This document shows, piece by piece, positions 1,658-31,161 of a stretch of DNA of 64,000 nucleotides (the first letter of the stretch is position 1; each line of letters starts with the position of its first letter). A model generated the notes under the pieces. That model was not told the origin of the DNA. It ran no database searches and saw nothing but the letters and a program-made list of their open reading frames with translations. Made by a program: the position numbers and the translations under genes. Source of the DNA: Pseudohongiella sp. (GTDB lineage: Bacteria > Pseudomonadota > Gammaproteobacteria > Pseudomonadales > Pseudohongiellaceae); contig NZ_DRFV01000006.1 of the NCBI RefSeq assembly GCF_011050365.1, positions 1-64,000 of the forward strand, written 5' to 3'.

Positions 1658-1664
1658 TGCCGCC

Positions 1665-2684: not shown

Positions 2685-2690
2685 GTGCTG

Positions 2691-2783: not shown

Positions 2784-2789
2784 AACTAC

Positions 2790-3323: not shown

Positions 3324-3354
3324 GCAAAGTAGTCTAGAGCAAGGAAGATACAGC

Positions 3355-4176: not shown

Positions 4177-4183
4177 GAAATGC

Positions 4184-4257
4184 ACCTAACCAATCAATCA
4201 ACTTCGCGCCTTTGGCGCCGGACGCAGCAAACTGCGCCGGTTATTGAGGCGTTATGA
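4184..4257 (+). other. attC site 8
   Basis: Inverse core ACCTAAC 4184-4190, core GTTATGA 4251-4257; CTTCGCGCCTTTGGCGCCGG inside. Confidence 0.9.
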
Positions 4258-4273
4258 GGCATAGGAGAATTCA

Positions 4274-4576
4274 GTGGTACTCGAGGTAGCGATACTAGAC
4301 GTTAAGCCAGGTCAGGCTACTGATTTTGAGGCCGCATTCAAAGAGGCTAAAATGATCATTGCCAGTATGGAGGGGTATCGATCCCATCAACTGCAGCGAT
4401 GCCTGGAAGACGCCAACCGCTACATCCTTTTGGTTCACTGGGACACCCTGGAACACCACACGGTTGGCTTCCGTGGTTCGGAGCAGTATCAGGAGTGGCG
4501 TGCGCTGCTACACCATTTTTATGATCCCTTCCCATCCGTCGAGCACTACACGCTGGTTAGTGAAGGTCAAACCTAA
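4274..4576 (+). CDS. Antibiotic-biosynthesis-monooxygenase (ABM) fold protein
   Basis: A 100-residue ferredoxin-like ABM domain: a first strand ending in KPGQATDFEAAFKEA, then MEGYRSHQLQRC, YILLVHWDTLEHH, FRGSEQYQEW and a final strand. Such proteins oxidise small aromatic or quinone substrates or simply bind them. GTG at 4274 has TAGGAGA 5-6 bases upstream. No attC separates it from the next gene (10 bases), so this cassette carries two genes, which is uncommon outside toxin-antitoxin modules and suggests that the two act together. Confidence 0.8.
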   Translation: MVLEVAILDVKPGQATDFEAAFKEAKMIIASMEGYRSHQLQRCLEDANRYILLVHWDTLEHHTVGFRGSEQYQEWRALLHHFYDPFPSVEHYTLVSEGQT

Positions 4577-4585
4577 AGGACTGTG

Positions 4586-4933
4586 ATGGCAACCGAAAAA
4601 ATCCACTATATTGAACTGCCGGCGACCGACCTCGAAGCAACAAAGCACTTCTTCGCTAAGGCATTCGGCTGGGAGTTTATTGATTACGGCCCTGATTATA
4701 CGGCGATTTCCGGCGCTGGACTCGATGGCGGCTTCTATAGATCAAACTTGCGTGCTACTACCGATACCGGTAGCGCGCTTGTGGTTCTATATAGCGGAAA
4801 CCTGGAGTCCTCACTCGCAAGGGTTGAAAATGCAGGCGGCATTATCATAAAGCCGATATTTGCCTTCCCAGGCGGCCGCCGGTTCCATTTTGCAGATCCT
4901 AGCGGCAATGAATATGCGGTATGGTCAGAATAA
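4586..4933 (+). CDS. VOC (glyoxalase/bleomycin-resistance superfamily) protein
   Basis: A 115-residue VOC protein with a complete module pair: IHYIELPATDLEATKHFFAKAFGW, then AISGAGLDGGFY, ALVVLYSGNLE and FPGGRRFHFADPSGNEYAVW. The last motif is the typical end of the YdcJ/VOC group. The likely metal ligands are H at the start of module one and E in NEYAVW. It is the second gene of a two-gene cassette with the ABM protein, and the spacing has AAAGGA before the ATG. Attack on an oxygenated substrate made by its partner is a reasonable guess, not shown. Confidence 0.8.
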   Translation: MATEKIHYIELPATDLEATKHFFAKAFGWEFIDYGPDYTAISGAGLDGGFYRSNLRATTDTGSALVVLYSGNLESSLARVENAGGIIIKPIFAFPGGRRFHFADPSGNEYAVWSE

Positions 4934-4953
4934 AGGAGAATGTGGCTAATGCC

Positions 4954-5031
4954 TCATAACCATCGCAATCAGTTCGGCGCTGCGCGCCCGGACGCTCACT
5001 TCGTTCGCGCCGCTGTTGCGGGGCGTTATGC
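4954..5031 (+). other. attC site 9
   Basis: Inverse core TCATAAC 4954-4960, core GTTATGC 5025-5031; GGACGCTCACTTCGTTCGCGCC inside arms. Confidence 0.9.
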
Positions 5032-5052
5032 ATCAATAGAGAATCACAAACT

Positions 5053-5547
5053 ATGGCGAGACTAATTATTGTTACTGGTCCAACAGGTGTCGGGAAAACC
5101 ACATATTCCTTATCTTTGTCGAAGAACATTGGGGCAGTTCGGTTTTCTATCGATCCGTGGATGCAGAACCTATTTTCAAAAGATATGACCTCCCTTGATT
5201 ATGCTTGGATGATTGAGAGGGTGAATCGATGTTATGTTCAAATCTGGCAGGTTAGTGAACAAATTTTGAAATTGGACGGCAATGTGGTTTTAGATTTAGG
5301 CTTCACCACTAAGGAACAGCGCGGTCATTTTTCTGCTCTAGCAAAGGAACTCGACGTTGATTCCGAAGTACATTATTTGAGTGCACCAACAGATGTTCGC
5401 AAAAAGCGCGTAGAAAAAAGAAACGTCGAGAAAGACCCTAGCGTCTATTCCTTTGAGGTTACTGATTTCATGTTTAACTTTATGGAGCCAAAATATGAAG
5501 TCCCCGACGAACAAGAGTTGGCAAATGGCCGTGTCGTAAGTGCATAA
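5053..5547 (+). CDS. P-loop kinase-like ATPase (AAA_33 / zeta-toxin-like fold)
   Basis: A 164-residue protein with Walker A at G9-T16 (GPTGVGKT), a middle acidic strand (VVLDLGF) that can act as Walker B, and a late R-rich segment KKRVEKRN typical of a lid. This is the AAA_33 group, which includes small-molecule and antibiotic kinases and zeta-type toxins. No antitoxin partner accompanies it. It is distantly related to the cassette gene at 9526. The substrate is unknown. The stop overlaps attC 10. Confidence 0.8.
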   Translation: MARLIIVTGPTGVGKTTYSLSLSKNIGAVRFSIDPWMQNLFSKDMTSLDYAWMIERVNRCYVQIWQVSEQILKLDGNVVLDLGFTTKEQRGHFSALAKELDVDSEVHYLSAPTDVRKKRVEKRNVEKDPSVYSFEVTDFMFNFMEPKYEVPDEQELANGRVVSA

Positions 5548-5618
5548 CAAGTGGCAGCACGGTGACCGCTTTTCCGCCGCTCGCGGCTCCAAACCGGCAC
5601 GTGTGTCAAGCGTTAGAG
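5542..5618 (+). other. attC site 10
   Basis: Inverse core GCATAAC 5542-5548, core GTTAGAG 5612-5618; CGCTTTTCCGCCGCTCGCGGC inside. Confidence 0.88.
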
Positions 5619-5659
5619 CCCGCGGCGCCCAGAGGCAAAGGTTGTCCAATTATGGATGA

Positions 5660-6115
5660 ATGGAATCGTTTATGATTTTAGAGTTCGAAGCCGCTTTCCC
5701 AGAGCACTTGGATGAACTTGTGAGAATACGGATAGCTGCTATGCGAGACAGTCTTACGAGAGTTGGGAGATTTGATCCGCATCGTGCCAAAGAAAGATTC
5801 GAATCAGGGTTTAATCCCGAATACACGAGATTCATAAACTTTGGCGGGCTAAGGGTCGGTTTCGTAGTAGTGAAGCCGGAGGAAGATGGCCTAAGACTTG
5901 ACCACTTGTATATTGAACCAGACTATCAAGGACGTGGGATTGGTGGGAAAGTACTTCAAACCATCTTCAGCACAGCAGACCAGCTGGGTCTGCCGACTTC
6001 AGTTACAGCGCTTCGAGACAGTGACTCAAACAGTTTCTGTCAAAGCCATGGATTCAAGTACCAGGATGAAACCGAATGGGACATAAATTATATCCGGATG
6101 CCCAGTACCCATTGA
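5660..6115 (+). CDS. GNAT family acetyltransferase (cassette gene)
   Basis: A 151-residue GNAT protein. The acetyl-CoA binding segment is LDHLYIEPDYQGRGIGGKV (Q-x-x-G-x-G type) followed by a helix, then VTALRDSDSNSFCQSHGFKY where the usual NxxAxxFYxxxGF motif sits. The N-terminal part (LVRIRIAAMRDSL) is like many N-acetyltransferases of unknown substrate. ATG 5672 is an alternative start close to the fold. The stop lies about 22 bases before attC 11. Confidence 0.82.
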   Translation: MESFMILEFEAAFPEHLDELVRIRIAAMRDSLTRVGRFDPHRAKERFESGFNPEYTRFINFGGLRVGFVVVKPEEDGLRLDHLYIEPDYQGRGIGGKVLQTIFSTADQLGLPTSVTALRDSDSNSFCQSHGFKYQDETEWDINYIRMPSTH

Positions 6116-6137
6116 GGACATCGATATTTTGGGGAAG

Positions 6138-6215
6138 CTCTAACAATCTCATGCAGTTCGCGCCTTCGGCGCCGGATGCAACCTGCGGTTGCACCGCTGA
6201 TGAAGGGCGTTAGCC
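6138..6215 (+). other. attC site 11
   Basis: Inverse core CTCTAAC 6138-6144, core GTTAGCC 6209-6215; CGCGCCTTCGGCGCCGGATG inside. Confidence 0.9.
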
Positions 6216-6240
6216 GAAAGCAGTGGGATCAAAGGGATCT

Positions 6241-6708
6241 ATGAGAACCAGAGAAGCGGAAGCAACGGATTTAGAAGCATTATTGGTGCTGAACGAGCAA
6301 ATAGGTACTTTTCATTTCGAAAATGCACCAGAAGCATTTACAAAGCCTTCCGCCGCTGACAAAGAGTTTTTACAAAATACTCTGAGTGATAAATCAAGGC
6401 TTTTTTTGGTAGCAGAAATAGAAGGTAGAGTTGTAGGGTTTCTAACGGCAATAATCACTAAAAACGAGACAATACCGTTTCTAGTTAGCTGCCCGGTTTG
6501 TCGTGTAGGGACGATAGTCGTTGACGAAAAACATCGTGCTTCCGGCGTTGGCACAAAGCTTATGTCGGCCTGTGGTAAGTGGGCTGACTCGCAAGGCGCG
6601 GAGCAAATCAGGCTAGAGGTTATGGCCTTTAACCAATCAGCACAAAAGTTTTATGAAAAGCTAGGTTTTAAAGATCACTCGCACGTCATGTGCAAGCTTA
6701 TCGGCTAA
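6241..6708 (+). CDS. GNAT family acetyltransferase (cassette gene)
   Basis: About 155 residues starting MRTREAEATDLEALL, the usual first strand and helix of GNAT enzymes. The CoA motif reads VDEKHRASGVGTKLM and the substrate-side motif LEVMAFNQSAQKFYEKLGFKD; both are intact. The longer frame begins at GTG 6223 with no better ribosome site, so ATG 6241 is chosen on fold grounds, although GGGA is only 3 bases upstream. The stop TAA overlaps attC 12. The substrate is not predictable. Confidence 0.82.
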   Translation: MRTREAEATDLEALLVLNEQIGTFHFENAPEAFTKPSAADKEFLQNTLSDKSRLFLVAEIEGRVVGFLTAIITKNETIPFLVSCPVCRVGTIVVDEKHRASGVGTKLMSACGKWADSQGAEQIRLEVMAFNQSAQKFYEKLGFKDHSHVMCKLIG

Positions 6709-6777
6709 CAAGTGGTTTAAACCGTTCGCTTCGCTCACTGGGACGGGCTAAAGCCCGCCCCTTAGCCAAACATTAGC
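6703..6777 (+). other. attC site 12 (core with first base changed)
   Basis: Inverse core GGCTAAC 6703-6709; the 3' core reads ATTAGCA at 6771-6777, where GTTAGCA is expected. The GGGACGGGCTAAAGCCCGCCCC hairpin region lies inside. The altered base could reduce recombination. Confidence 0.75.
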
Positions 6778-6833
6778 AACCACCGAGATCCACCTCTCTT
6801 GCCAATTGAGTAAAAAAGGGACAATTTATACTC

Positions 6834-7097
6834 ATGAGCGATTTCGAGTACGATGACGACAAAAGTCAGGCTAATCTGGAGAAGCGTGGAATCGACTTTC
6901 TGGATGCCGAAGCGTTGTGGGAAGACCCTGATCTGCTTGAGATTCGGGTTAGATCCGATGACGAACCTCGGTTTTTGGTTATAGGCCGTATAGGCCACAG
7001 GCACTGGTCTGCCGTCGTCACCTACAGAGACGGAACAATTCGGCTCATTTCTGTAAGGCGTTCTCGTAAAACAGAGGTAGAGCTGTATGAAAGCTAA
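6834..7097 (+). CDS. brnT: BrnT-family ribonuclease toxin
   Basis: An 87-residue BrnT toxin: it begins FEYDDDKSQANLEKRGIDFLDA, then EIRVRSDDEPRFLVIGRI and the ending LISVRRSRKTEVELYE, matching the family (RelE-fold RNase, catalytic His/Arg region). The family cuts RNA and is blocked by BrnA. The reading frame overlaps brnA by 11 bases. As in known brnTA operons the toxin comes first. A TATACT sequence lies just before the ATG, but no good -35 is paired with it. Confidence 0.93.
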   Translation: MSDFEYDDDKSQANLEKRGIDFLDAEALWEDPDLLEIRVRSDDEPRFLVIGRIGHRHWSAVVTYRDGTIRLISVRRSRKTEVELYES

Positions 7098-7356
7098 AGA
7101 TTTTGATAAGAAATTCGACCAAGGCAAAAAAGACATCATTGATGATCTTGATCTATCCACGGCGCGTCGTGCCAACCAGGATCAGAAGCGTATCAATGTC
7201 GACTTTCCGTCATGGGTAGTAGAGTCACTGGATCGTGAGGCGGCTCGTGTTGGTGTTACCCGGCAGTCGATCATCAAGGTCTGGTTGGTTGAGCGTTTGA
7301 AGGCTGAGGCTGCTAACAAGCCGCTGAATGGTGACGCCGCGGGCGGCGCGCATTAG
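7087..7356 (+). CDS. brnA: BrnA-family antitoxin whose C-terminus is encoded by attC
   Basis: An 89-residue BrnA antitoxin. The core RINVDFPSWVVESLDREAARVGVTRQSIIKVWLVERLKAE is the ribbon-helix-helix DNA-binding domain (residue order as in BrnA), which also binds BrnT. The TAAC of the following attC lies in another frame, so translation continues into attC 13 and stops at TAG 7354-7356. The last 13 or so residues (NKPLNGDAAGGAH) are therefore attC-encoded. The operon is very probably self-repressed by the BrnTA complex. Confidence 0.92.
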   Translation: MKAKDFDKKFDQGKKDIIDDLDLSTARRANQDQKRINVDFPSWVVESLDREAARVGVTRQSIIKVWLVERLKAEAANKPLNGDAAGGAH

Positions 7357-7369
7357 CGGAGCGTTAGCA
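7311..7369 (+). other. attC site 13, overlapping the brnA reading frame
   Basis: Inverse core TGCTAAC 7311-7317, core GTTAGCA 7363-7369, only 59 bases; GACGCCGCGGGCGGCGCGC in the middle. Some 46 of its bases are coding in brnA. Confidence 0.85.
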
Positions 7370-7433
7370 AGCAGGTCGTACCACTGAAGTAATTACACCT
7401 TGTTTTAAGGGCACAATCGTTAAGGATTCCGAT

Positions 7434-8084
7434 GTGGTGGCAAGATTTGCATTAGTGTTTCTACTGTTAATTCAAGTATCTTGTGTTGGATCTTCAAGTG
7501 GCCAGGATCCACCCGAGTATTGGGCCGAAATTTTTAGACAATACCCATCTGGAGAAGCATACCAGAGGCTAAATGATTTTCTTGGCGAAAAACCAATTGC
7601 TGAGCAGCTGGAGTTCCGCGACAGAGTCACCGAGGCGCGCTTGAGTACCATTAGAGCTCCATCGCTTGAGGAAGCTGGCTATAAGAGCTACGAAAAGGCG
7701 TATATAGATCTCATAGATGTCATAAATAGAGCGGAGGAGGCAGGGGAGCCAATTCATGGGCTGGAAAATTACTGGCGAGAGATGAAGTTGATGCTTGATA
7801 GCCCGTTTAGATTCTACGGGGACGAGGTTGTAAGCCTTATCCCTGTTAGCAGAATGACTACGGAGCAGCAGAGGCAGTTGGTATTGGTGACAGCTGCCAT
7901 GAACTTTTCTTATGCGAAGAATCTAGCGGTCGAGGGCGTGCCTCTCAGACTAACTGAATCAACCGAAGAAATGGCTGTCTGGATAGGTGCGTTACCTATA
8001 ATTAGGTACGGGAGTGTTCTCTATAGCGCAAAGATTGAGCTGGCCCCGAAATCAGGGGAACCGATTCAGATAGTTCACCGATAG
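7434..8084 (+). CDS. Exported protein of unknown function, possible lipoprotein
   Basis: A 216-residue protein with a hydrophobic leader (VARFALVFLLLIQVSC); the cysteine at residue 17 could be lipidated, though Q at -3 is unusual for a lipobox. The mature part is hydrophilic and mostly helical (PPEYWAEIFRQYPSGEAYQRLNDFL; EEAGEPIHGLENYW). GTG 7434 and the next codon GTG are both possible starts. No family is recognised. It lies in its own cassette, with about 90 bases of non-coding sequence before attC 14. Confidence 0.65.
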   Translation: MVARFALVFLLLIQVSCVGSSSGQDPPEYWAEIFRQYPSGEAYQRLNDFLGEKPIAEQLEFRDRVTEARLSTIRAPSLEEAGYKSYEKAYIDLIDVINRAEEAGEPIHGLENYWREMKLMLDSPFRFYGDEVVSLIPVSRMTTEQQRQLVLVTAAMNFSYAKNLAVEGVPLRLTESTEEMAVWIGALPIIRYGSVLYSAKIELAPKSGEPIQIVHR

Positions 8085-8175
8085 GATTCGGGCGACGCAG
8101 CAACATTTTAGATACCTGAATATGCTCTGGAAATATTACTTGTTGAAGGATCAGCCCAAATTCCGTTCAGAGAGC

Positions 8176-8290
8176 TGCTAACAATTTGCTATACCGGACC
8201 CTGCTACGCTGCGCCAGCTTGTGGTTCGCTTCGCTCACTTTTACCACAAGCTGGCTTCACTACTCTGGGCCGGTAAGCAAGGCGTTATTG
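8176..8290 (+). other. attC site 14
   Basis: Inverse core TGCTAAC 8176-8182, core GTTATTG 8284-8290; long near-perfect inner palindrome with GCCAGCTTGTGG and CCACAAGCTGGC arms. Confidence 0.9.
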
Positions 8291-8313
8291 AGCATATCGA
8301 CTTACGGTGGAAC

Positions 8314-8820
8314 ATGGAAAATTTGCTAATTTCAGTGCTAGGAAATAGAAACTCCGGTAAATCATTTACGTGGAACACGATGTTTGGGAAAACCGTGAAA
8401 TCTGGGACAAAGATTCGAAAATTATTCTTTAACAAATGCGAATATGTAGAAGTGTACTTAGTAAGTGGATCTCCCGAGGAGCGAAATAAGTATGTTGGTG
8501 AATTGATTGGCAGCGCGAAACCAAGGATTGTCCTGTGCTCTGTCCAGTACAAAGAGGAAGCGAGAGAAACTTATAGGTATTTCATAGGCCAAGGTTTTTT
8601 CCTATTTATTCACTGGCTTAATCCAGGATATGGAGACCCCGACACCCCATATTATGATTCTTTGGGATTCGAGAATTGGCTATTAGCATACACCAGCCTA
8701 TTAGGGATTCGCTCAGGAAAGGTTGGCGCAGCTCCAAGAGTTCAAGAAATGAAGGATTTTATTTACGGGTGGGCCAAATCCAGAAATCTGATAGTGAATG
8801 ATTGTGTAAATGCTCAATAA
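8314..8820 (+). CDS. P-loop NTPase-like protein (cassette gene)
   Basis: A 168-residue protein with a Walker A motif GNRNSGKS (residues 10-17) near its start, then VEVYLVSGSPEERNKY, a hydrophobic strand PRIVLCSVQY and LFIHWLNPGYGD. The proportions are of a small nucleotide-binding protein rather than a GTPase, and no GTP-specificity motif is seen. ATG 8314 is chosen because the longer frame would start inside attC 14 and would put the P-loop far from the N-terminus. The stop TAA overlaps attC 15. Confidence 0.72.
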   Translation: MENLLISVLGNRNSGKSFTWNTMFGKTVKSGTKIRKLFFNKCEYVEVYLVSGSPEERNKYVGELIGSAKPRIVLCSVQYKEEARETYRYFIGQGFFLFIHWLNPGYGDPDTPYYDSLGFENWLLAYTSLLGIRSGKVGAAPRVQEMKDFIYGWAKSRNLIVNDCVNAQ

Positions 8821-8919
8821 CAAACCGATCCTGAGCGACAAAAGTATGTCGCCATACCTTTTTCAAAAAGCGCAAAAGGCACGCCAACATACTTTCGCGC
8901 CAGATCAGGGGCGTTATGT
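8815..8919 (+). other. attC site 15
   Basis: Inverse core CAATAAC 8815-8821, core GTTATGT 8913-8919; arms around AAAGTATGTCGCCATACCTTTT. Similar to attC 5. Confidence 0.9.
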
Positions 8920-8941
8920 GCTTCGAGATGGGGAATATAGT

Positions 8942-9427
8942 GTGAGAATACTTTCGTTATCAATGAAAGGGGGGCTAGTGGTAGTGGCCACGCTATTTGC
9001 GAGTGCAAGCTTCGCGTGCACGTGCATTTTTTCTGGTGCATTTGAAGTCTTTGCGGAACAGCATCCAGTCATAGTAAGGGGCAAGGTGCTTCAGCATGGC
9101 GAAAGGATACCAAATAATTCAGGCTACTTTAAAACAATGACAATTGTGGTTTCCGATACTCTGAAGGGGAGCTTTCCCTACTCCACATTCGAGTTCTACG
9201 GAGATACAGGGATGTCCTGTCTCCGATATATTACGCTTGATGACTACCCAGTCGGCAGCGAACACCTATTTATCTTGGCAAGTGATGAATCTCTTCAACC
9301 TCTAATGGTGTGTGGAGAGTCGTCCCTCTTGATAAATGGCGATACTGTGCAAGGACGCGTTCGGGATGGCGGTGGGTATGGAACATACGAGCTAAACCTT
9401 GGCGAGCTAATGGAGCGCGTAAGGTGA
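8942..9427 (+). CDS. Secreted NTR/TIMP-like domain protein (cassette gene)
   Basis: About 161 residues. A signal peptide (LSLSMKGGLVVVATLFASASFA) is followed at once by a mature N-terminus CTCIF, the C-x-C start that defines netrin-like/TIMP domains. The following EQHPVIVRGKVLQHG, VVSDTLKGSF and further cysteines in GMSCLRY and LMVCGESS fit an OB-fold NTR domain held by disulfides. In animals the mature Cys blocks metalloproteases; bacterial versions are poorly studied. GTG 8942 has GGGG upstream; ATG 8963 is an alternative. The location should be periplasm or cell exterior. Confidence 0.7.
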   Translation: MRILSLSMKGGLVVVATLFASASFACTCIFSGAFEVFAEQHPVIVRGKVLQHGERIPNNSGYFKTMTIVVSDTLKGSFPYSTFEFYGDTGMSCLRYITLDDYPVGSEHLFILASDESLQPLMVCGESSLLINGDTVQGRVRDGGGYGTYELNLGELMERVR

Positions 9428-9431
9428 GCGC

Positions 9432-9510
9432 ACATAACAATCGGTTGCACAGCGACGATTTCGGCGCCGCCTTGCTCCACCAAAATTGCGCGTGAATACG
9501 GGCGTTATGC
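9432..9510 (+). other. attC site 16
   Basis: Inverse core ACATAAC 9432-9438, core GTTATGC 9504-9510; shares its 3' half with attC 1. Confidence 0.9.
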
Positions 9511-9525
9511 AATCAGAGGCAAGGA

Positions 9526-10038
9526 ATGAGTAAAGGAGTATTGATATTTTTCTGCGGCAAGATGGGTGCAGGGAAGTCCACGAAGTCCCGTGAAATTGCG
9601 CAGAAGCGAAATGCTGTATTTATTTCCGAGGATGAGTGGTTAGCCTCACTTTACCCCAATAGTATTCTGTCTCTGGACGATTACATTCAGTGCTCTGATC
9701 GGCTTAAACTACAAATGAAGAGGCTGGTTCAATCGATACTGATTTCAGGAACTGATGTGGTTATGGACTTTCCAGCAAACACGATTCCGCAACGAGAGTG
9801 GTTTAGGAGCATTTTTTCTGAGGTACGAGCTCCCCATGAATTGATTTACATCGACCAGCCAAACGATGTTTGCATAAGTCAGATCGAAAAAAGGCGAACA
9901 GAGCATCCGCAGAGAGCAGCGACCGACACTAAAGAGATGTTTGAGCTAGTGACAAAGCATTTTGTAGTGCCGACATCCGATGAAGGGTTCAATACAACGG
10001 TAGTAGTGGGAAATGCACAACAAGCGCTTGCAGACTGA
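9526..10038 (+). CDS. P-loop kinase-like ATPase (AAA_33), C-terminus read into attC
   Basis: A 170-residue protein with Walker A GKMGAGKS (residues 11-18), then VFISEDEWLASLYP, a sequence common in AAA_33 kinases where the acidic pair sits after strand 2, DVVMDFPANT as Walker B-like strand, and a basic lid QIEKRRTEHPQR. It is distantly related to the cassette gene at 5053. The position where other cassettes have TAAC reads CAAC here, so the stop is lost and six extra residues (QQALAD) are encoded by the attC. The substrate is unknown; a small-molecule or antibiotic kinase is one option. Confidence 0.8.
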   Translation: MSKGVLIFFCGKMGAGKSTKSREIAQKRNAVFISEDEWLASLYPNSILSLDDYIQCSDRLKLQMKRLVQSILISGTDVVMDFPANTIPQREWFRSIFSEVRAPHELIYIDQPNDVCISQIEKRRTEHPQRAATDTKEMFELVTKHFVVPTSDEGFNTTVVVGNAQQALAD

Positions 10039-10131
10039 ACCCGAAACCTACGCGTTTTTGTGTTGCTCGCTGCGCTCAAACACTAACATAAAAGCGCCAT
10101 GGCTTCGGCCCAGCTGAAGCGGGCGTAATGT
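10015..10131 (+). other. attC site 17 with both core sites altered
   Basis: Inverse core reads GCACAAC at 10015-10021 (GCATAAC expected) and core reads GTAATGT at 10125-10131 (GTTATGT expected). The palindromic arms (GCGTTTTTGTG; CATAAAAGCGC) remain. Both changes hit recombination core positions, so this site is probably weak or dead. Confidence 0.6.
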
Positions 10132-10184
10132 GTCTAGTAGCATCGGCATCGCACCAGAGTGAGTAGTATTGGGTAATCGAAAAA

Positions 10185-10637
10185 ATGCTGAATATAAAGC
10201 ACAAACTCATTGCTTCTTTGACTGCCGTTACCCTAACCATTGGTCCTGGTTACTACTTCATATCCCCAAGAGCGATAGTGTCGAATCTCTCTGGCACAGA
10301 ATTTGATGAACTTATTATCTCTCTGCCATTCAGTCGGGTATCCTTTGGCCCAATTGAGGCTCAAAGTTCCAGTACAATATTTTACTCTCGCTAACACCGA
10401 CCAGGTATGGGGACCTATTCGCTAAGAAGTGAAAGCTCAGAAATTTCCGGCAGCAGTTTCCCTTATGCAGAGGGGCCTGGATTTGGGAGAGTTCTCCGTT
10501 TCACGATCGATGACTACGGCCAAGTATCGGTAAATGACCAGATGGGGGTGGCCTCCGGCCATCTTATTCGCATTTGTCGCGCGGCGAGACCTGAGCTTTA
10601 TCAAGGGCGTTATGCCCCTGCGAGTACTTTTTCATGA
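10185..10637 (+). pseudogene. Small membrane-anchored protein interrupted by an in-frame stop
   Basis: ATG 10185 opens a 69-codon frame with one N-terminal membrane helix (LIASLTAVTLTIGPGYYFIS) that ends at TAA 10392-10394. The same frame then continues without a break (HRPGMGTYSLRSES ... GFGRVLRFTIDDYGQVSV) in equally protein-like sequence, so a CAA-to-TAA change is likely. The true end is unclear because the frame runs toward an attC-like core at 10609-10615. The family is unknown. If the downstream ATG 10407 is used, a separate 76-residue product is also possible. Confidence 0.5.
10609..10615 (+). other. Remnant attC core
   Basis: GTTATGC in the context AAGGGCGTTATGCC is identical to the end of several attC sites, but no convincing inverse core is found upstream, so only the 3' end appears to survive. 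Confidence 0.35.
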
Positions 10638-10869
10638 AACGTATCTTTCTCACTTCCAGCTCTTCCAGGGATACATTTTACACCCCGATATCACGGCCTG
10701 GGAGTGCCATGCCTGTTCAATCAACAATGCACGGGATTGTATGCGAATTATGAGTGCTTTTCTGTCTGAGCTGGATGCGCGGTTGGTCCCCGCCGAGAAT
10801 ATGTTCTTCAAGTGGCGGCCTTTCTGGTGGGTGTCTCAGCGCGAAATGACCTATAGCGCGGTAGCGTAG
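10612..10869 (+). CDS. Unknown cassette ORF, possibly a gene remnant
   Basis: 85 codons from an ATG inside the attC core remnant. The product is rich in aromatic residues and cysteine (DITAWECHACSINNARDC; NMFFKWRPFWWVSQREM). No ribosome site, family or downstream attC was found, and it may be the 3' part of a truncated gene; the frame is open further upstream to 10534. Confidence 0.3.
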   Translation: MPLRVLFHETYLSHFQLFQGYILHPDITAWECHACSINNARDCMRIMSAFLSELDARLVPAENMFFKWRPFWWVSQREMTYSAVA

Positions 10870-10921
10870 CGAGTTACCTTGACACCTGTTAATCTGTGGA
10901 AACCTAAACGTGGAATAAACA

Positions 10922-11293
10922 ATGACACCATACGAAATGCTCGATCTCGGCCAGAGTAGCTACTCGACTTCGGTTGCCTATGTATCAATCTTTATTACGC
11001 TTCTAAGTGCCTATCTGGTTGCGGCCTATATTGTCGCCGGCCGACTGAGTAAAGCTCAATTTCTGTTAGCGAATAGCCTGTACTTGGTAATACAAACCCT
11101 GACTATCCTTACTATCTACAATTTCAATAGTTCCGCAAGATTTTGGGGTAACCTTGGGCGGTCAAATATGCCTGTGTCTAGCGAGAGTGCCAATGTTACC
11201 TACATACCGGAAGCTGTGGCGCTGGTCCTCATACTTACCATGCTACTCAGCGTATGGTTTATGTGGAAGTCCTGGAATCCAAAGGCTGAATAA
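10922..11293 (+). CDS. Three-helix membrane protein (cassette gene)
   Basis: A 123-residue protein with hydrophobic segments at about residues 19-41, 46-66 and 96-116. The N-terminus is short and polar and the C-terminus ends KSWNPKAE. It resembles other small integral membrane proteins found in cassette arrays but no named family is recognised. Its stop is not followed by an attC; instead about 170 bases lead to the final truncated site. Confidence 0.6.
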   Translation: MTPYEMLDLGQSSYSTSVAYVSIFITLLSAYLVAAYIVAGRLSKAQFLLANSLYLVIQTLTILTIYNFNSSARFWGNLGRSNMPVSSESANVTYIPEAVALVLILTMLLSVWFMWKSWNPKAE

Positions 11294-11368
11294 ACAGGCG
11301 TGTGGCTATTATGAAGCGCTTGCCCGAGCAGAGACATGATCCTCTTAGCGAAATAGAACCCGAACGAT

Positions 11369-24969: not shown

Positions 24970-26739
24970 CTATGATTTTGAGGCGACTGTTGTGTCCGTG
25001 AGCCACGAGGCGAAATCCGCCGCTACCACAGGCTTGCTGTACAGATACCCCTGGCCCTTGTCGCAGCCGAGTTGACGGACAATCTCTGCCTGGGCAAAGG
25101 TTTCTATGCCTTCGGCTACCGTGTCCATCCCCAGGCTGTGTGCCACCCGGATCGTGGCGTCAATCAAGATGCGATGATGAAGACTGGTATCCCCGTAGCG
25201 CACAAATGAGCGGTCGATCTTTACCGTGTCCACGGGTATCTGGTGAAGACTGGAGAGCGAGGAGTACCCGGTCCCGAAGTCGTCCAGTGCCAACGTCAAG
25301 CCAAGCGCCTTCAGCTCATGCAGTCGTGTTAACACCGATCCGCTCTGGGCTGCCAGGCTTTCGGTGACTTCCAGTTGCAGGCATGACGCAGGCATGCCGC
25401 TTGAGCGCAGTATTCCGTCCACTATGCCCGCCAGCCCCGGATGGCTGAGTTGTTCGCGTGACAGGTTTACCGCAAGTTTACGTGGCGCACGCGGCCCTAG
25501 CAGCGCCTGCCACGTCATGAACTGGCGGCACGCCGTGTCCAGCACGAATTCGCCGATTGCGTCGATCATGCCGCATTCCTCGGCGATGCCAATGAACTCT
25601 ACCGGCGAAACAACGCCCCGAACCGGGTGTTGCCAGCGCACCAATGCCTCCATGCCGGCGCATGGGTCAATAGCGCCGTCGATATATTGCTCTCCCTGCA
25701 GTCCAACCACGGGCTGGTAAACAACAAAAAGCTGGTTTTTGGCCAGCGCAAGCTGGAGATCGTCCTCTACACTCCTGCGCTGCCGGGCACTTGCGCGCAT
25801 CCCCGGTTCGAAAATCGCATAGCGAGAGTCGCCGGCCCGCTTTGCGTCTTCCATTGCGAGACTCGCATCCTGCAGCAGGTCGCTCGCATTGCCCGAGTCG
25901 CGGTTCTGCACAACGATGCCCATGCTGACGCTGCAATAAATCTTGTGCGGTCCTATTGCGTAGGGCCTTCCCAGCCGGTCAAGTATCCGCTGCGCGACGC
26001 CCGTCACGTTCTCCGGCACCAACAGATCATCGAGCATGACGGCAAACTCGTCGCCGCCGATACGCGCCGTCAGCGGCAGGCCGTCCATCACCTCTCCGTC
26101 TCGCCTGCGCGAGCGCAGCGTGGAGCCCAGGCGGCCGGCGATCAGGCTCAGAAGCTGGTTCCCTATGTTGTATCCAAGCGCATCATTGATGAGTTTGAAG
26201 CGGTTACAGCTAATGTACAGCAACGCACACCCATAACGGGTGTCTGTCGCGGGCCGGTCCAGCGCGGTCTGGAGCAGTTCGAGCGCCGCCACCCGGGTAG
26301 GCAGTCCGGTCAGTTTGTCGACGCGTTCGGCTTCACTGAGTTTTCTGGAGAGAACTTGCTGTTCGTGTTGTACCTCCAGTGTGACATCAACAAAGACTGC
26401 CAACAGCAGATCATCGACCAGCCTCAGCATGCTCAGCGAGAGGATTGGAGACGACGGGCTGGGGGCCGCTTCGGGGTGCAGTGAGATGCGCAGCGATTCG
26501 CAGATGATGCCACTGGCGGGGTCCGCATCAGCAGCCAGCTGGCGTAGCGTCGGCGCGCTGTCCTGCAGCAAGGTATACAGGTTGTCCAGGCTCCCGTCCT
26601 GCGAGAACGGCATCAGCAATTGCGCCGACTTCGGGTTGATCATTTCGATGTCGCCATCGAGCGAGGTCTGCACCAGGCCAATCGGCGCCCGATACATGAA
26701 CTGGAGCAGGGACTCATAGGCGTCGTTGGATGTCGTCAC
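24970..26739 (-). CDS. PAS-GGDEF-EAL cyclic-di-GMP enzyme (third gene of PYP operon)
   Basis: A 589-residue protein: a short N-terminal PAS segment (FMYRAPIGLVQTSLDGDIEMINP), then GGDEF with intact ARIGGDEFAV at about residues 226-233, then EAL with EALVRW near residue 364, NLSREQ, DDFGTGYSS, VKIDRSF and AEGIET. Both catalytic domains look complete. ATG overlaps the stop of the preceding PAS gene by four bases (ATGA), and that gene directly follows the PYP homologue, so the three are one translational unit. Predicted role: c-di-GMP turnover governed by the upstream sensor. Confidence 0.9.
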   Translation of the reverse strand: MTTSNDAYESLLQFMYRAPIGLVQTSLDGDIEMINPKSAQLLMPFSQDGSLDNLYTLLQDSAPTLRQLAADADPASGIICESLRISLHPEAAPSPSSPILSLSMLRLVDDLLLAVFVDVTLEVQHEQQVLSRKLSEAERVDKLTGLPTRVAALELLQTALDRPATDTRYGCALLYISCNRFKLINDALGYNIGNQLLSLIAGRLGSTLRSRRRDGEVMDGLPLTARIGGDEFAVMLDDLLVPENVTGVAQRILDRLGRPYAIGPHKIYCSVSMGIVVQNRDSGNASDLLQDASLAMEDAKRAGDSRYAIFEPGMRASARQRRSVEDDLQLALAKNQLFVVYQPVVGLQGEQYIDGAIDPCAGMEALVRWQHPVRGVVSPVEFIGIAEECGMIDAIGEFVLDTACRQFMTWQALLGPRAPRKLAVNLSREQLSHPGLAGIVDGILRSSGMPASCLQLEVTESLAAQSGSVLTRLHELKALGLTLALDDFGTGYSSLSSLHQIPVDTVKIDRSFVRYGDTSLHHRILIDATIRVAHSLGMDTVAEGIETFAQAEIVRQLGCDKGQGYLYSKPVVAADFASWLTDTTVASKS

Positions 26740-26918
26740 GTTTTCGCGCCTTGGCCGGGACTGACGTCCCGCGCGAGTGGCATCAGTAATTGTGCCGGGA
26801 CCGGGTTGATCATAGCAATCTCGCCATCGAGCGCCGTCCTCACAAACCCGACCGGTGCCATGTAGATGAGCCCAAGTAGTGCTTCGTGCTCATCGTTGAT
26901 CGCCACGTGAGGGTGCAT
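26736..26918 (-). CDS. 60-residue stand-alone PAS fragment
   Basis: A 60-residue protein whose middle (LLGLIYMAPVGFVRTALDGEIAMINPVPAQLLMPL) is clearly related to the N-terminal PAS of the next gene (LLQFMYRAPIGLVQTSLDGDIEMINPKSAQLLMPF). It is therefore a partial tandem duplication. The start ATG directly follows the PYP stop (TAAATG) and the stop overlaps the next ATG, so the coupling is kept although the domain is only about half a PAS fold. It may be a linker protein, a remnant, or an adaptor between PYP and the cyclase. Confidence 0.65.
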   Translation of the reverse strand: MHPHVAINDEHEALLGLIYMAPVGFVRTALDGEIAMINPVPAQLLMPLARDVSPGQGAKT

Positions 26919-27302
26919 TTACTGGAGGCGGTTTACTAGCAGGTAGCGCAACGTCTTGCCAGGAGGGCCTGCCAGCAGTCGCAGTTTGACCTTCACAGGT
27001 TTCATGCGAAACGTAAGTACATAGTTGATAGTTTCATCCAGAGAGTCGCCGGTGGTCGCTGCATCTTCAAACCGCAGAGCGACCATGAAGTTGTTCATGC
27101 AGGGCGCGACTACGGTAAACAGGGGCTGGCCCAACACACGCTGCGGAGACAGCCCGGCAAGCCTGGCTTCAAGAGCGTTGTACCGGCGAACTATCGTTTC
27201 CGCATCGAAACCGATGACCCCGAAATCGAGCTCATCAAGCTCACTCTCGCTGAGTGAGTCGATCCTGTCAAATATGGCATCATCTGTGAATCCAAGGTGC
27301 AT
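26919..27302 (-). CDS. pyp: Photoactive yellow protein homologue
   Basis: About 127 residues, the length of classical PYP (125). Read from ATG 27302 (a longer frame from GTG 27380 adds 26 poorly conserved residues), it follows PYP along its whole length: helix FTDDAIFDRIDSLSESELDELDFGVIGFD, then YNALEARLAG where Y and E match PYP Tyr42 and Glu46, then VVAPC where C matches Cys69 that carries p-coumaric acid, and FRMKPVKVKL near the end. All three align with one constant offset. Arg52 is replaced by Leu. It should be a cytoplasmic blue-light sensor if the host makes p-coumarate and its CoA ligase; those genes are not in the window. First gene of a coupled operon with PAS and GGDEF-EAL genes. 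Confidence 0.85.
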   Translation of the reverse strand: MHLGFTDDAIFDRIDSLSESELDELDFGVIGFDAETIVRRYNALEARLAGLSPQRVLGQPLFTVVAPCMNNFMVALRFEDAATTGDSLDETINYVLTFRMKPVKVKLRLLAGPPGKTLRYLLVNRLQ

Positions 27303-28075: not shown

Positions 28076-28132
28076 TATTTGACGATATTGCCAGAGGTTT
28101 GGGTTTTGGTTTCCTGGGACAGGGAGGATTTT

Positions 28133-28381
28133 ATGCTCGAATTGAGGCCCAATTGCGAATGCTGTGACAAGGATTTGCCGCCGGACTCCCTTGAGGCTGT
28201 TATCTGCACATTTGAATGCACATTTTGTAAATCCTGTGCGTCTGGCGTTTTGGCCAATCAGTGTCCCAACTGCGGCGGCAGTTTTTCGCCCCGTCCCATT
28301 CGCCCGGTATCACTGCTAGGTAAATATCCAGCGTCAACCCATCGTGTGGTCAAGGCCGGTGGTTGCAGTGCCAAGTCTTAA
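28133..28381 (+). CDS. DUF1272 zinc-ribbon-like protein
   Basis: An 82-residue protein starting MLELRPNCECCDKDLPPDS, with further cysteines in ICTFECTFCKSC and QCPNCGG. These are the diagnostic motifs of DUF1272, a small family with metal-binding cysteines and no established role. AGGGAGG lies about 5 bases before the ATG; a longer in-frame extension upstream is not needed. It is the first gene after the integrase remnant, the place of a first cassette, and is followed by a degenerate attC. Confidence 0.88.
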   Translation: MLELRPNCECCDKDLPPDSLEAVICTFECTFCKSCASGVLANQCPNCGGSFSPRPIRPVSLLGKYPASTHRVVKAGGCSAKS

Positions 28382-28439
28382 CCACTCGCATCAGTGCGCG
28401 GTGGATGGCTGCCGGACGCCACTGTACTCAGCTTTATGT
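28376..28439 (+). other. Degenerate attC-like site
   Basis: TCTTAAC at 28376-28382 overlaps the DUF1272 stop; the far end reads GCTTTATGTGCC where GCGTTATGTGCC would be a normal core. Arms such as CGGTGG and GCCGGACGCC are attC-like. One core substitution explains the difference. Confidence 0.4.
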
Positions 28440-28483
28440 GCCCATAACTGCACTGCCAGCACTGAATATCAGGAACACTAACG

Positions 28484-28984
28484 ATGAGGATCACGCTCAG
28501 GGATTACGAATCTAGCGATGCACCGCGGTTGGTAGAACTTGCAAACAACGAAAATGTGTCGCAATTCCTGATTTATACATTCCCCTATCCCTACACCATG
28601 GAGGATGCCAATTGGTGGATCAGCGTTGGATCACATGACAACGGTACGATAACCAAAGCTATTGAGTACGATGGTGCCTTCATCGGAACTGTCGGAATCA
28701 CGCCTCAGGTTGGCTGGAAAAGTCATACGGCAGAGATTGGTTACTGGCTTGGTGAAGATTTCTGGGGGCGTGGCATCGCCACCGAGGCATTAAAGCTTAT
28801 GACAGAACACGCATTCTCAGAGGGTGTGAGGGGAAAGCTATTCGCGCCAGTACTGGCACCTAATCGAGCATCAGCGCGCGTTCTCGAGAAGAATGGCTAT
28901 CTCCTGGAGGGCGTGCTTAAAAATGAAGTCATTAAAAATGGGCAGATGTTTGACATACTGCATTACGCCAAGCTGCGCACATAA
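28484..28984 (+). CDS. GNAT acetyltransferase, RimJ/RimL-like
   Basis: A 166-residue protein of the Acetyltransf_3 (RimJ/RimL/SpeG-like) type: MRITLRDYESSDAPRLVELAN, IGYWLGEDFWGRGIATEALKLM (CoA loop GRGIAT) and NRASARVLEKNGYLLEGVLKNEV are standard. Members acetylate ribosomal proteins, tRNA-linked or antibiotic amines; the substrate here is open. The stop TAA overlaps the inverse core of a normal attC, so it is a cassette gene. Confidence 0.88.
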   Translation: MRITLRDYESSDAPRLVELANNENVSQFLIYTFPYPYTMEDANWWISVGSHDNGTITKAIEYDGAFIGTVGITPQVGWKSHTAEIGYWLGEDFWGRGIATEALKLMTEHAFSEGVRGKLFAPVLAPNRASARVLEKNGYLLEGVLKNEVIKNGQMFDILHYAKLRT

Positions 28985-29096
28985 CAATCAGTTGCAAACC
29001 GACATCGGGTATTGCAGACCTTCCATGCTCTTCGATGGCGCTCAAAAAATCGCAAAATTCGCTCGATACCAGCTGTGGCTGGACTGGACGTTAGGT
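28979..29096 (+). other. attC site of the second array
   Basis: Inverse core ACATAAC 28979-28985, core GTTAGGT 29090-29096, about 118 bases; starts like the truncated site at 11462. Confidence 0.8.
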
Positions 29097-29104
29097 AGCT
29101 AAAT

Positions 29105-29701
29105 ATGGATTCAATCTCAGCTGCACAATGCAACATGCGTGATGCCTACTACGGTGGAGCCCCTGGCATTGTCTCCTCAGGAAGTGCGTGGCTGTTAGCT
29201 GCGATAGTTGCAGCCTTGGTATCGGAGCGGGCAGGTGTTATCACTCTGGTACTGGCGGGGATGTTCATTTTCCCTGTGTCGGTTGTACTTTGCAGATTGA
29301 TTGGGTGTACCGGAAAGCACAGCAAGGACAATCCTCTCGCTCCGCTTGCCATGGAGGGAACTATCTGGATGCTTCTGTCTATCCCCATAGCAATAGCTGC
29401 TGCTATGTTTAGGGTCGAGTGGTTTTTCCCGGCGATGCTTTTAGTAATTGCTGGCCGTTATCTCACTTTTTCCACTTTGTACGGGATGCGTATTTTCTGG
29501 ATCTTCGGAGCAACATTGGTGGCCTCTGGGCTGTGGCTGATTTATTTGCAAGCGCCCGTGTTTCTGGGTGCATTGACTGGTGCATTAGTTGAGTACATAT
29601 TCGGTGTTGTAATATTCGTGACTTATAAGGCATCGCAAACTAAACAAGCGCTCAACTCGCAGGGTGCGTCTGCCGGGACGCCGCGAGACGGCGCCTGTTA
29701 G
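29105..29701 (+). CDS. DUF7010-like membrane protein
   Basis: A 198-residue protein with about six membrane segments. The motifs MRDAYYGGAPGIVSSG, FPVSVVLCRLIG, NPLAPLAMEGTIWM and PAMLLVIAGRYLTFSTLYGMRIFW are those of a family of hypothetical inner-membrane proteins now called DUF7010. Function unknown. The last 20 or so residues (QALNSQGASAGTPRDGAC) are encoded by the following attC because its inverse core reads ACTAAAC and no longer supplies a stop; the frame ends at TAG 29699-29701 inside the site. Confidence 0.75.
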   Translation: MDSISAAQCNMRDAYYGGAPGIVSSGSAWLLAAIVAALVSERAGVITLVLAGMFIFPVSVVLCRLIGCTGKHSKDNPLAPLAMEGTIWMLLSIPIAIAAAMFRVEWFFPAMLLVIAGRYLTFSTLYGMRIFWIFGATLVASGLWLIYLQAPVFLGALTGALVEYIFGVVIFVTYKASQTKQALNSQGASAGTPRDGAC

Positions 29702-29714
29702 CGTGGCGTTATGT
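29639..29714 (+). other. attC with altered inverse core, overlapping the DUF7010 gene
   Basis: ACTAAAC at 29639-29645 in place of an RYYYAAC core; normal core GTTATGT at 29708-29714; CCGGGACGCCGCGAGACGG inside. Confidence 0.55.
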
Positions 29715-29781
29715 ATCGTGAGCGCTGCTATCGATAGAGGTGTCATTGGTTTTGCGTTGACGTGCCAATCGGCGAGGTTAA

Positions 29782-30248
29782 ATGATTATCAGGCGAGTGG
29801 GACATCGTTACTTTGACTCTGAGTCGAGAGTAACTCTGGATTGCTGGTTTCCCCGTGACAACGAAATAGCGGCCCGGAGCTGTTTGTCTCAAAAGTATGG
29901 GCTCATTCAGAGTGATTCTGTCGAGATCAATATTGGTAACCTTTCCGACGCGCCGACAACCACCGAGGAGGCATACCTTCGTTTACATTTGCTGTCGGAA
30001 TGTGTGGTAGGGCCAAATGAACTGAACCTGGAAGGTATCTTCTCCCTTTTAACCAATGTCGCGTGGACTTCGGCTGGGCCAGTTCTGCGTTTACACTCCC
30101 AGATGGTAGCGTGGTGTCCGCGCGTACTTTATCCGGCAAACCGGGCTTGTTGTTTCGGCGCAATAGCCAATCCGGAGCGGTGGAGGTGAAGCCCACCGAC
30201 TCAGCTCGTTGGGGCGGTATAAACTCCACACTGCATAACAATGATTGA
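29782..30248 (+). pseudogene. dapD: dapD remnant lacking its catalytic left-handed helix domain
   Basis: The first frame (29782-30189) gives TTEEAYLRLHLLSE, NLEGIFSLLTNVAWTSAGPV, which match the N-terminal domain of Pseudomonas-type tetrahydrodipicolinate N-succinyltransferase. From about 30085 a different frame (ending at TGA 30248) gives FTLPDGSVVSARTLSGK and LLFRRNSQSGAVE, the conserved C-terminus of the same enzyme. The whole beta-helix between them, more than 130 residues, is deleted and the frame is shifted. The gene normally acts in lysine and diaminopimelate synthesis; a dead extra copy in a cassette-like position between two attC sites is unusual. Confidence 0.8.
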
Positions 30249-30254
30249 GCAAAT

Positions 30255-30329
30255 GCATAACAAAACAATTAAAAATTTTACTTTTAGCGCTGGATTCGCC
30301 AATGCTTGCCTTTGTTTGCAGCGTTAGGC
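30255..30329 (+). other. attC site of the second array
   Basis: Inverse core GCATAAC 30255-30261, core GTTAGGC 30323-30329; A+T-rich arms (AACAAAACAA against TTTGTTTGCAGCG). A second GCATAAC at 30233-30239 lies just before it, at the end of the dapD frame. Confidence 0.75.
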
Positions 30330-30344
30330 GTTCAGAGGGAATAG

Positions 30345-30722
30345 ATGAAGATCAATTTTAGCTGGCCAACCTGGGTAAAGATCGGAATATTGGTGGCAGT
30401 GCTCATAACTGCGCCGTACTTCATTCCTTTCGCATTGGAGTTCGTCATAGTAGCGGACCTTATGGGGTTGGAGGCACTCGTTGTTTTCCTGGCAGCTAGT
30501 GGAAAATACTGGTGGCGTGCCATTTCACTTAGGTTATCGGCTTTGGCGCAAAACCTCGCCGAGACTGCGGCGCTAGTGGCTGAACTGTATCTGTTCAAGC
30601 CCCGGGTAGTGTTATTGCACGCAACGGTTAGCGGGTTGTGCCTGATTCTGGCTAGTTCAGTGATTCTCTGTTTAGCGGTGTGGATTCCCCCGATGATCTT
30701 GAGTGCGCAGCTTGTCTCTTGA
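30345..30722 (+). CDS. Small membrane protein of unknown function (cassette gene)
   Basis: A 125-residue protein with two or three hydrophobic segments (about residues 11-30, 36-50 and 90-116) and a polar helix between them (WRAISLRLSALAQNLAETAALVAELYLF). GAGGGA precedes the ATG. It directly follows an attC core, as cassette genes do. No family recognised. Confidence 0.6.
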   Translation: MKINFSWPTWVKIGILVAVLITAPYFIPFALEFVIVADLMGLEALVVFLAASGKYWWRAISLRLSALAQNLAETAALVAELYLFKPRVVLLHATVSGLCLILASSVILCLAVWIPPMILSAQLVS

Positions 30723-30869
30723 CCACACGTACGCTCGTTGACGTGCGTGCCTGCGTCCTTCTTTCGCTGGCCTCGTTCTCTTGTGTCCGTTTATCGAGAG
30801 GCTTGAATCAGTGCGGCTCAGACAGGCGGAGCTGATTCCAGGTTTGACCGGGAACGGCAAGTGTTATGT
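30717..30869 (+). other. Degenerate attC-like site
   Basis: TCTTGAC overlaps the stop codon at 30717-30723 (TCTTAAC expected) and GTTATGT ends the region at 30863-30869. The 150 bases between hold short inverted repeats (ACGTACGCTCGTTGACGTGCGTG) but no full attC palindrome. Confidence 0.3.
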
Positions 30870-30879
30870 ATAATCAAGC

Positions 30880-31161
30880 ATGGACAATATTCTAAGAAAA
30901 CTCACAGGCTACACATTCGCGCTGAGAGATGCGCTAGAGCGCACAAATGAATCGAGCGAGCGGCCGAAAATCACCAGGCATCTGGCCGCGGCAGCCGAAA
31001 TGTATGCACTTCTCTATATGCATCAAACCAGTGAGGCAATAGCTCACATTGTGGAAGCAGAGAACCGAGTCCATGGTTGGTCAAATCTATCCGGTGACAA
31101 TGGAGAAAAAGTCGCCAAAAAATGGGCAGAGTTTATCGATGTGGCAGGAATCGAGCTTTGA
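30880..31161 (+). CDS. Unknown 93-residue helical protein
   Basis: A soluble, mainly helical protein (MDNILRKLTGYTFALRDALER; HLAAAAEMYALLYMHQTSEAIAHIVEAENRVHGWS). No motif or family is recognised. TTGACC (30844-30849) and TATAAT (30869-30874) lie upstream with a 19-base spacer; if used, the message would be nearly leaderless. The gene follows a GTTATGT core and so is probably a cassette gene. Confidence 0.5.
   Translation: MDNILRKLTGYTFALRDALERTNESSERPKITRHLAAAAEMYALLYMHQTSEAIAHIVEAENRVHGWSNLSGDNGEKVAKKWAEFIDVAGIEL

Follow-up and report, generated by a model that had tools for sequence, protein, structure and literature searches.

Genes of the locus

The 64,000-nucleotide stretch of DNA analysed here as a whole (the window; positions 1 to 64,000 of contig NZ_DRFV01000006.1, assembly GCF_011050365.1, from the gammaproteobacterium Pseudohongiella sp.) carries on its minus strand a compact operon that is predicted to place the breakdown of cyclic di-GMP (c-di-GMP) under a photoactive yellow protein (PYP). 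Its three frames follow one another in the order PYP (27302-26919), a 60-amino-acid open reading frame (ORF; 26918-26736) and a GGDEF-EAL enzyme (26739-24970), and all of them lie where a first-pass annotation, made from the sequence letters, had placed them. The enzyme begins with a domain that we call NPAS. The features are as follows:

26919..27302, minus strand: clade C PYP gene, 127 amino acids, ATG start at 27302
26736..26918, minus strand: 60-amino-acid ORF that corresponds to the first half of NPAS, interpreted as the relict of a lost middle diguanylate cyclase
24970..26739, minus strand: NPAS-GGDEF-EAL enzyme, 589 amino acids, GTG start, predicted c-di-GMP phosphodiesterase
26350..26739, minus strand: NPAS, enzyme amino acids 1-130, perhaps a diverged PAS fold, with no Pfam or NCBIfam match of its own
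25810..26337, minus strand: degenerate GGDEF domain, signature present, metal-binding Asp replaced by Ser and guanine-binding Asp by Asn, RxxD site incomplete
25030..25764, minus strand: EAL domain, 8 of 8 checked catalytic residues present

The PYP frame stays open upstream of its ATG as far as a GTG at 27380, which would give a longer version of 153 amino acids. The stop codon of the PYP gene and the start codon of the 60-codon ORF abut as TAAATG, the coupling that the first-pass annotation had described; the junction ahead of the c-di-GMP enzyme, which it had given as ATGA, reads GTGA, with the two frames overlapping.

The sensor is a PYP of clade C

The sensor had been proposed to be a PYP homologue that should score better with a PYP model than with generic PAS models, and this is what we found: the NCBIfam PYP model TIGR02373 matches it with 81.3 bits (E = 5.8e-23), as opposed to 27.5 and 26 bits for Pfam PAS and PAS_4, the two generic PAS models that match at all. 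In a phmmer search of the PDB, Ppr-PYP comes out best (E = 4.7e-20) and other PYPs come next. Given the TIGR02373 score relative to generic PAS and the best PDB matches, the resemblance of the 127-residue protein to PYP is far beyond chance. The Tyr, Glu and Cys residues of PYP are residues 41, 45 and 68 of the 127-residue frame and 67, 71 and 94 of the 153-residue frame, which confirms the constant offset of 25 previously suggested for the long version. These residues (Tyr42, Glu46 and Cys69 in PYP numbering) are present in the window protein and in all 80 relatives, the best 80 of 269 found in the genome collection (56-71% identity to the window PYP).

According to those portions of PMC9664959 and PMC12826048 on which we draw throughout, Cys69 defines the PYP family (PMC9664959), and clade C is marked by the loss of Phe92, Phe96 and Trp119 and the retention of Met100 together with Tyr42, Glu46 and Cys69 (PMC9664959). 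The window protein displays this pattern, with Ile for Phe92, Leu for Phe96, Tyr for Trp119 and Met100 kept; Phe62 is changed as well. It also possesses Ala50, Leu52, Leu49 and Thr97, which are listed as consensus residues of the family (PMC12826048). A maximum-likelihood tree was built from 83 rows, comprising the alignment of the relatives, the canonical PYP of the window's genome and canonical PYPs from an ORF scan; in it, clades C and A are parted by a single split with support of 100/100, and the window protein falls into C. Two points weigh against the scheme proposed below: the score lies below the curated TIGR02373 cut-off (81.3 vs 143 bits), and as of 2022 clade C had no characterised member (PMC9664959). 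The three other clade C members that were scanned, at 62.6, 78.1 and 86.2 bits, fall below the same cut-off, which we do not treat as defining because the model is said to match only a small subset of PYPs (PMC9664959). Judged by its sequence, then, the 127-residue protein is a clade C PYP.

Two enzyme classes behind one sensor

In the usual operon of the relatives, the PYP is accompanied by an NPAS-PAS-GGDEF protein, an intact cyclase, and by an NPAS-GGDEF-EAL protein in which the metal-binding Asp of the GGDEF domain is replaced and the EAL domain is intact. The roles of the metal-binding Asp and the guanine-binding positions of the GGDEF domain, as well as the identity of the eight catalytic EAL positions checked, are taken by us as given. 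The metal-binding Asp is present in 72 of the 74 cyclase-class GGDEF domains of the relatives, with the RxxD Arg in 70 and the RxxD Asp in 71 of these 74 rows. The two rows that lack the metal-binding Asp (L081 and L102) have an NPAS that scores with the other class. In the EAL class, 64 of 66 GGDEF domains have Asn in place of the metal-binding Asp, the five commonest residues at the position of the RxxD Asp do not include Asp, and the eight EAL residues are kept in every one of the 66 EAL domains longer than 200 residues, including that of the window. Because of this split, we read the usual operon as a putative pair for synthesis and breakdown behind one light sensor. Two EAL-class enzymes (L077 and L110) keep the metal-binding Asp and do not fit that reading.

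The GGDEF domain of the window is more degenerate than those of its EAL-class relatives, with Ser for the metal-binding Asp and Asn for the guanine-binding Asp; it lacks the residue set of an active cyclase, though it keeps the GGDEF signature. With Ser in place of the metal-binding Asp and the full set of eight EAL residues, the enzyme is predicted to be a c-di-GMP phosphodiesterase. Thus, of the earlier description of this protein as a cyclase and c-di-GMP enzyme, the GGDEF-EAL architecture stands and the cyclase activity gives way, the GGDEF domain being degenerate and the EAL domain intact.

Among the 80 genome loci, an NPAS-GGDEF cyclase followed by an NPAS-GGDEF-EAL enzyme is found in 54 (two of them with a further GGDEF). 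The cyclase is the sole such gene, by the rule used, in 10; NPAS-GGDEF-EAL directly follows the PYP in eight; two loci encode NPAS-NPAS-GGDEF-EAL fusions, and one has a cyclase shortened to 276 amino acids ahead of NPAS-GGDEF-EAL. The remaining five comprise L081, L091 and L111 (contig ends), L104 and the broken L108. In 14 rows the middle cyclase is absent or altered, and these require 13 changes on the PYP tree, in which few forks are resolved; the loss of the middle cyclase probably happened repeatedly, and rows L077 and L104 may not be losses. The operon of the window appears to keep the breakdown half only.

Several individual loci depart from these architectures in their own ways. At L108:6169-9236 the cyclase and the phosphodiesterase of a clade C operon are spread over several broken frames, apparently through decay or an assembly error. 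At L089:7329-10127 and L090:5351-8083 the phosphodiesterase has a degenerate first GGDEF and a C-terminal second GGDEF with the metal-binding Asp, and a separate cyclase is absent. The NPAS-GGDEF-EAL protein at L112:7108-9129 carries a cyclase-type NPAS (+40.7 bits), as if recombination between NPAS copies had deleted the cyclase.

NPAS as the candidate partner domain

No Pfam or NCBIfam family matches residues 1-130 of the window enzyme. This domain aligns over 120-133 residues, at 31-47% identity, to the N-termini of eight enzymes from seven plasmids, each encoded next to a clade C PYP. A PYP match was present in 13 plasmid records, of which 10 were retrieved, nine with a clade C PYP and one with a canonical PYP (L033), and an NPAS gene lies next to the clade C PYP on eight of the nine. 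In the genome loci it follows the clade C PYP (PYP-C) in 79 of 80, the contig of L111 ending 152 nt after the PYP. In 77 of the 80 the PYP is followed by a gene for a separate GGDEF or EAL protein, in line with the earlier view that the PYP and the c-di-GMP enzyme act as separate proteins; the other three are L091 and L111, where contigs end, and L104, which gave no recognisable GGDEF.

Co-occurrence was assessed with both profiles in 30 genomes or records (26 genomes from the 80 loci, picked to include reduced operons, and four plasmids). Within 1514 nt of a PYP-C lie 53 of the 54 NPAS matches, the sole distant one being in a genome with a PYP-C elsewhere, and all 31 strong PYP-C matches have an NPAS 17-93 nt away. 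In a phylum sample of 398 genomes, NPAS gave any match in 17 and PYP-C in 11, and for both profiles the strong matches are confined to the window's genome and to G805, which is Massilia-like by RecA (96%); the next-best PYP-C match (E = 1.2e-17) lies within a 900-amino-acid frame. With the window sequence as query, NPAS was found in one of the 137 genomes of the family. The 11 further family genomes that match the PYP query gave no NPAS match, so NPAS seems to track clade C and not PYPs in general.

Some observations weigh against so close an association. The 30 genomes or records were chosen for carrying PYP-C with NPAS, and L024, a Comamonadaceae plasmid outside that sample, has a clade C PYP with no NPAS found within its 12 kb stretch. 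In the phylum sample, for which about 10 candidates were scored per genome, 15 other genomes have NPAS matches, at E = 1.8e-6 or weaker. Next to the PYP of L024 (5983-11045), the opposite strand encodes a 'PAS domain-containing protein' of 4.1 kb and a BLUF protein, possibly a different partner.

As to its fold, 92 NPAS domains gave a handful of weak PAS matches at E values up to 0.1 (PAS_8 in three, PAS_7 in two, PAS_4 in two and PAS in one), as well as a single alignment, likewise weak, to a VicK-like kinase (E = 0.7). These suggest a diverged PAS fold. The weakness of the profile matches underlying the PAS-like label counts against it, as does a profile-profile comparison of NPAS with PYP, in which no kinship was found.

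A candidate route to the chromophore

The genome of the window also encodes a canonical PYP, which scores 182 bits with TIGR02373, above the cut-off. A frame starting 3 nt after it has as its best NCBIfam family TIGR02372, 4-coumarate--CoA ligase (213.5 bits). One aromatic lyase was found in the genome, away from the canonical PYP. Its best solved relative is 2o6y, listed as a 'putative histidine ammonia-lyase', which we take to be the tyrosine ammonia lyase (TAL) of Rhodobacter sphaeroides; the two have the stretch LVHHL in common. The second His of that stretch, presumably the position that selects tyrosine, is Phe in the related structure 2o78. By eye, the neighbours of the lyase in the retrieved stretch are unlike a histidine-degradation operon. 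Two scores tell against the assignment: the ligase falls short of the TIGR02372 cut-off (213.5 vs 334.7 bits), and the top NCBIfam models for the lyase are histidine ammonia-lyases, below their own cut-offs. A search for TAL and p-coumarate CoA ligase, suggested by the first-pass annotation, therefore gave a divided answer, with candidates for both present and both below the NCBIfam cut-offs, and the genome holds a plausible candidate route to p-coumaroyl-CoA. Ligase matches lie near PYP-C in the stretches of 31 of the 80 relatives (one of them, in L112, short) and lyase matches in seven, and the locus stretch of 49 contains neither.

Distribution and origin

Apart from two metagenome-assembled genomes, titled Gemmatimonadaceae (L065) and Gammaproteobacteria (L083), the relatives (78 of 80) are titled Betaproteobacteria, mostly Burkholderiales. 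Within the family of the window's genome, the PYP query matches 12 of 137 genomes, its own included. Because the matches outside its own genome reach just the level of the canonical copy of that genome (best E = 2.1e-16, 34% identity), we count it as the sole one of the 137 with a clade C copy. The RecA protein of the window's genome is 68-72% identical to those of 11 betaproteobacterial genomes of relatives, which are 75-93% identical among themselves. Horizontal acquisition of the clade C PYP operon is the simplest reading of these comparisons. In an empty-site search in sister species, the malic enzyme adjoining the operon had a good match (59-60% identity) in four of the 10 genus genomes searched.

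Further PYP-like proteins were encountered along the way. The Indioceanicola plasmid L026 (NZ_CP030128.1) carries, besides a clade C PYP and a canonical one, a further PYP-like match at 82683-83006, inside a 912-amino-acid open frame. A PYP-like protein with 39% identity to the window PYP is encoded at L016:1444-1893 (genome G416), where the neighbours, by eye, are an opposite-strand MerR-like regulator frame and a downstream AMP-ligase-like frame.

The 60-codon ORF

The 60-residue ORF looks like the relict of a lost separate diguanylate cyclase gene, because it groups with the NPAS of cyclases and sits where that gene lies in the relatives. A class profile over 45 homologous residues, which puts 3 of 75 and 3 of 64 rows of known class on the wrong side, gives it +30.9 bits (cyclase-type) and the NPAS of the window enzyme -11.9. 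In a placement test on a fixed backbone (70 rows, 137 placements, 49 columns) its best position is inside the cyclase clade. Against the relict reading, the Shimodaira-Hasegawa (SH) test leaves sisterhood with the window enzyme unrejected (p = 0.077), positions next to the cyclase-like L112 NPAS or on the inter-class branch are also unrejected, and the whole test is based on 49 columns.

The first-pass annotation had taken the ORF for a partial copy of the N-terminus of the GGDEF-EAL enzyme, itself under PYP control, and the two are indeed 59% identical over 46 residues. The ORF is closer, at up to 69%, to cyclase-type NPAS domains of other genomes; by identity the window enzyme ranks 42nd of 151 (58%), and placing the ORF as sister of that enzyme is 17.4 log units worse (approximately unbiased (AU) p = 0.009, rank 94 of 137). 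On a larger, quickly searched tree a single clade of the two window rows went unrejected (p-AU = 0.70), an uninformative test in that the constrained version was 12.5 log units above a free search that had missed it. A recent duplication of the enzyme N-terminus is thus disfavoured by class profile and placement, some tests leaving it standing, and with the position of the ORF being that of the missing gene, the partial copy strikes us as very improbable. It is somewhat easier to imagine the half-NPAS as a working small protein that competes with or caps the NPAS of the enzyme and so tunes the light response: the frame is open and tightly coupled on both sides, and 14 of 19 near-invariant NPAS positions are kept. 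Intact but divergent relatives keep 13-16. The NPAS of the enzyme keeps 17 of these 19, as at least that many are kept in 131 of 149 compared domains; a half-NPAS ORF occurs in one genome only, and half of a PAS-like fold would hardly be stable alone. We consider such a role improbable and retain the relict reading.

Proposed mechanism

In the mechanism that we favour, the clade C PYP would bind p-coumarate made by a TAL-like and a ligase-like enzyme whose genes lie at other sites of the genome. Blue light would change its shape, and the PYP, as a separate protein, would act on the NPAS of the neighbouring enzyme, a step suggested by their near-exclusive co-occurrence. The residues of that enzyme point to c-di-GMP phosphodiesterase activity and to a GGDEF domain that is degenerate and probably has a regulatory role. 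In the relatives, two NPAS enzymes, an active cyclase and a phosphodiesterase, would stand under one PYP; in the window the cyclase would be reduced to the 60-codon half-NPAS. Blue light would then alter the rate of c-di-GMP breakdown alone, and hence attachment or motility. With the cyclase apparently gone and the remaining enzyme combining an intact EAL with a degenerate GGDEF domain, it is most likely that light controls only breakdown here. Docking of the PYP on NPAS and all of the photochemistry are steps that we infer, which weighs against the scheme; taken as a whole, with PYP-C acting through NPAS on a phosphodiesterase after loss of the cyclase, it has somewhat more than even chances in our estimation. 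For the more general proposal, that NPAS is a dedicated receiver for clade C PYP, that through reversible docking this one photoreceptor, a small soluble protein, drives a matched pair of making and breaking enzymes, and that the making half was lost in several lineages including this one, we regard the chances as evenly balanced. Were it true, loss of the making half would convert a light switch that works both ways into one that controls breakdown alone.

Alternatively, the PYP and the enzyme may merely be co-expressed, NPAS sensing something else and the PYP having another target. The second, recognisable PAS that follows NPAS in the three cyclases scanned would suit this arrangement, as would the plasmid PYP-C of L024 with its lack of an NPAS neighbour; the near-confinement of NPAS to the neighbourhood of PYP-C in the genomes searched speaks against it, and we hold it to be rather unlikely. 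The clade C PYP might also be a former photoreceptor that has become a ligand or redox sensor with a retained pocket, given the changes at Phe62, Phe92, Phe96 and Trp119, the many relatives (49 of 80) with neither ligase nor lyase in the locus stretch, and the absence of clade C photochemistry from the portions of PMC9664959 and PMC12826048 considered. This, too, is an unlikely course of events when set against the retention of Tyr42, Glu46 and Cys69 in 80 of 80 relatives, the ligase and lyase matches near PYP-C in others, and the candidate p-coumaroyl-CoA route of this genome.

Other features of the window

At gathering thresholds, an Rfam scan of the window gave no matches. Runs of small plus-strand genes, by eye deaminase-, PIN-, glyoxalase- and GNAT-like, occupy positions 1-11300 and 28079-31161; between these genes are stretches with a resemblance, by eye, to attC sites of integrons.

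Comparison with known systems

Clade C PYPs beside GGDEF and EAL genes have already been published (PMC9664959, PMC12826048), and clade C relatives carry the misnomer 'phosphonate transporter' (PMC9664959). Among 113 pyp operons, GGDEF occurs in 29 and EAL in 22, and genomes with several PYPs have been reported (PMC12826048). In their portions considered here, PMC9664959 and PMC12826048 make no mention of a common N-terminal partner domain, a split into cyclase and phosphodiesterase or reduced operons, and that of PMC6848086 contains nothing bearing on this system. Literature searches, with subscription papers and supplements outside their scope, returned no title or abstract opening on the partner domain, the paired enzymes or the reduced operons. 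The signal chain downstream of PYP has been called an important knowledge gap (PMC12826048), and the missing partner has a concrete candidate in NPAS, which closely tracks clade C PYP and heads both cyclase and phosphodiesterase. The interest of the locus lies in this partner domain rather than in the PYP itself. The window would offer a naturally reduced, phosphodiesterase-only version of the operon and, if the prediction is true, a compact two-part blue-light tool in which sensor and effector are separate.

Phosphodiesterases of GGDEF-EAL architecture whose GGDEF domain is degenerate and regulatory, with the EAL intact, the signature present and the metal-binding Asp changed, are a familiar class. 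The window enzyme is like them in all three respects and differs in its N-terminal NPAS and in the coupling of its gene to that of a PYP. With the published clade C PYPs the window protein shares the hallmarks of the clade, the single-domain form, nearby c-di-GMP genes and the 'phosphonate transporter' name of its relatives; the difference is that its genome lies outside the compared Betaproteobacteria (by RecA identity), where most close relatives occur. In Idiomarina loihiensis, where blue light lowers biofilm formation, a separate PYP likewise putatively acts on an adjacent c-di-GMP protein (PMC9664959, PMC12826048), but that PYP belongs to clade A and its partner is a GGDEF protein, whereas the partner in the window is a predicted phosphodiesterase. 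Ppd of Thermochromatium tepidum also joins a PYP input to a GGDEF-EAL output (PMC9664959, PMC12826048); it does so as a PYP-phytochrome-GGDEF-EAL fusion, in contrast to the window, where PYP and enzyme are separate proteins of an operon that lacks a phytochrome.

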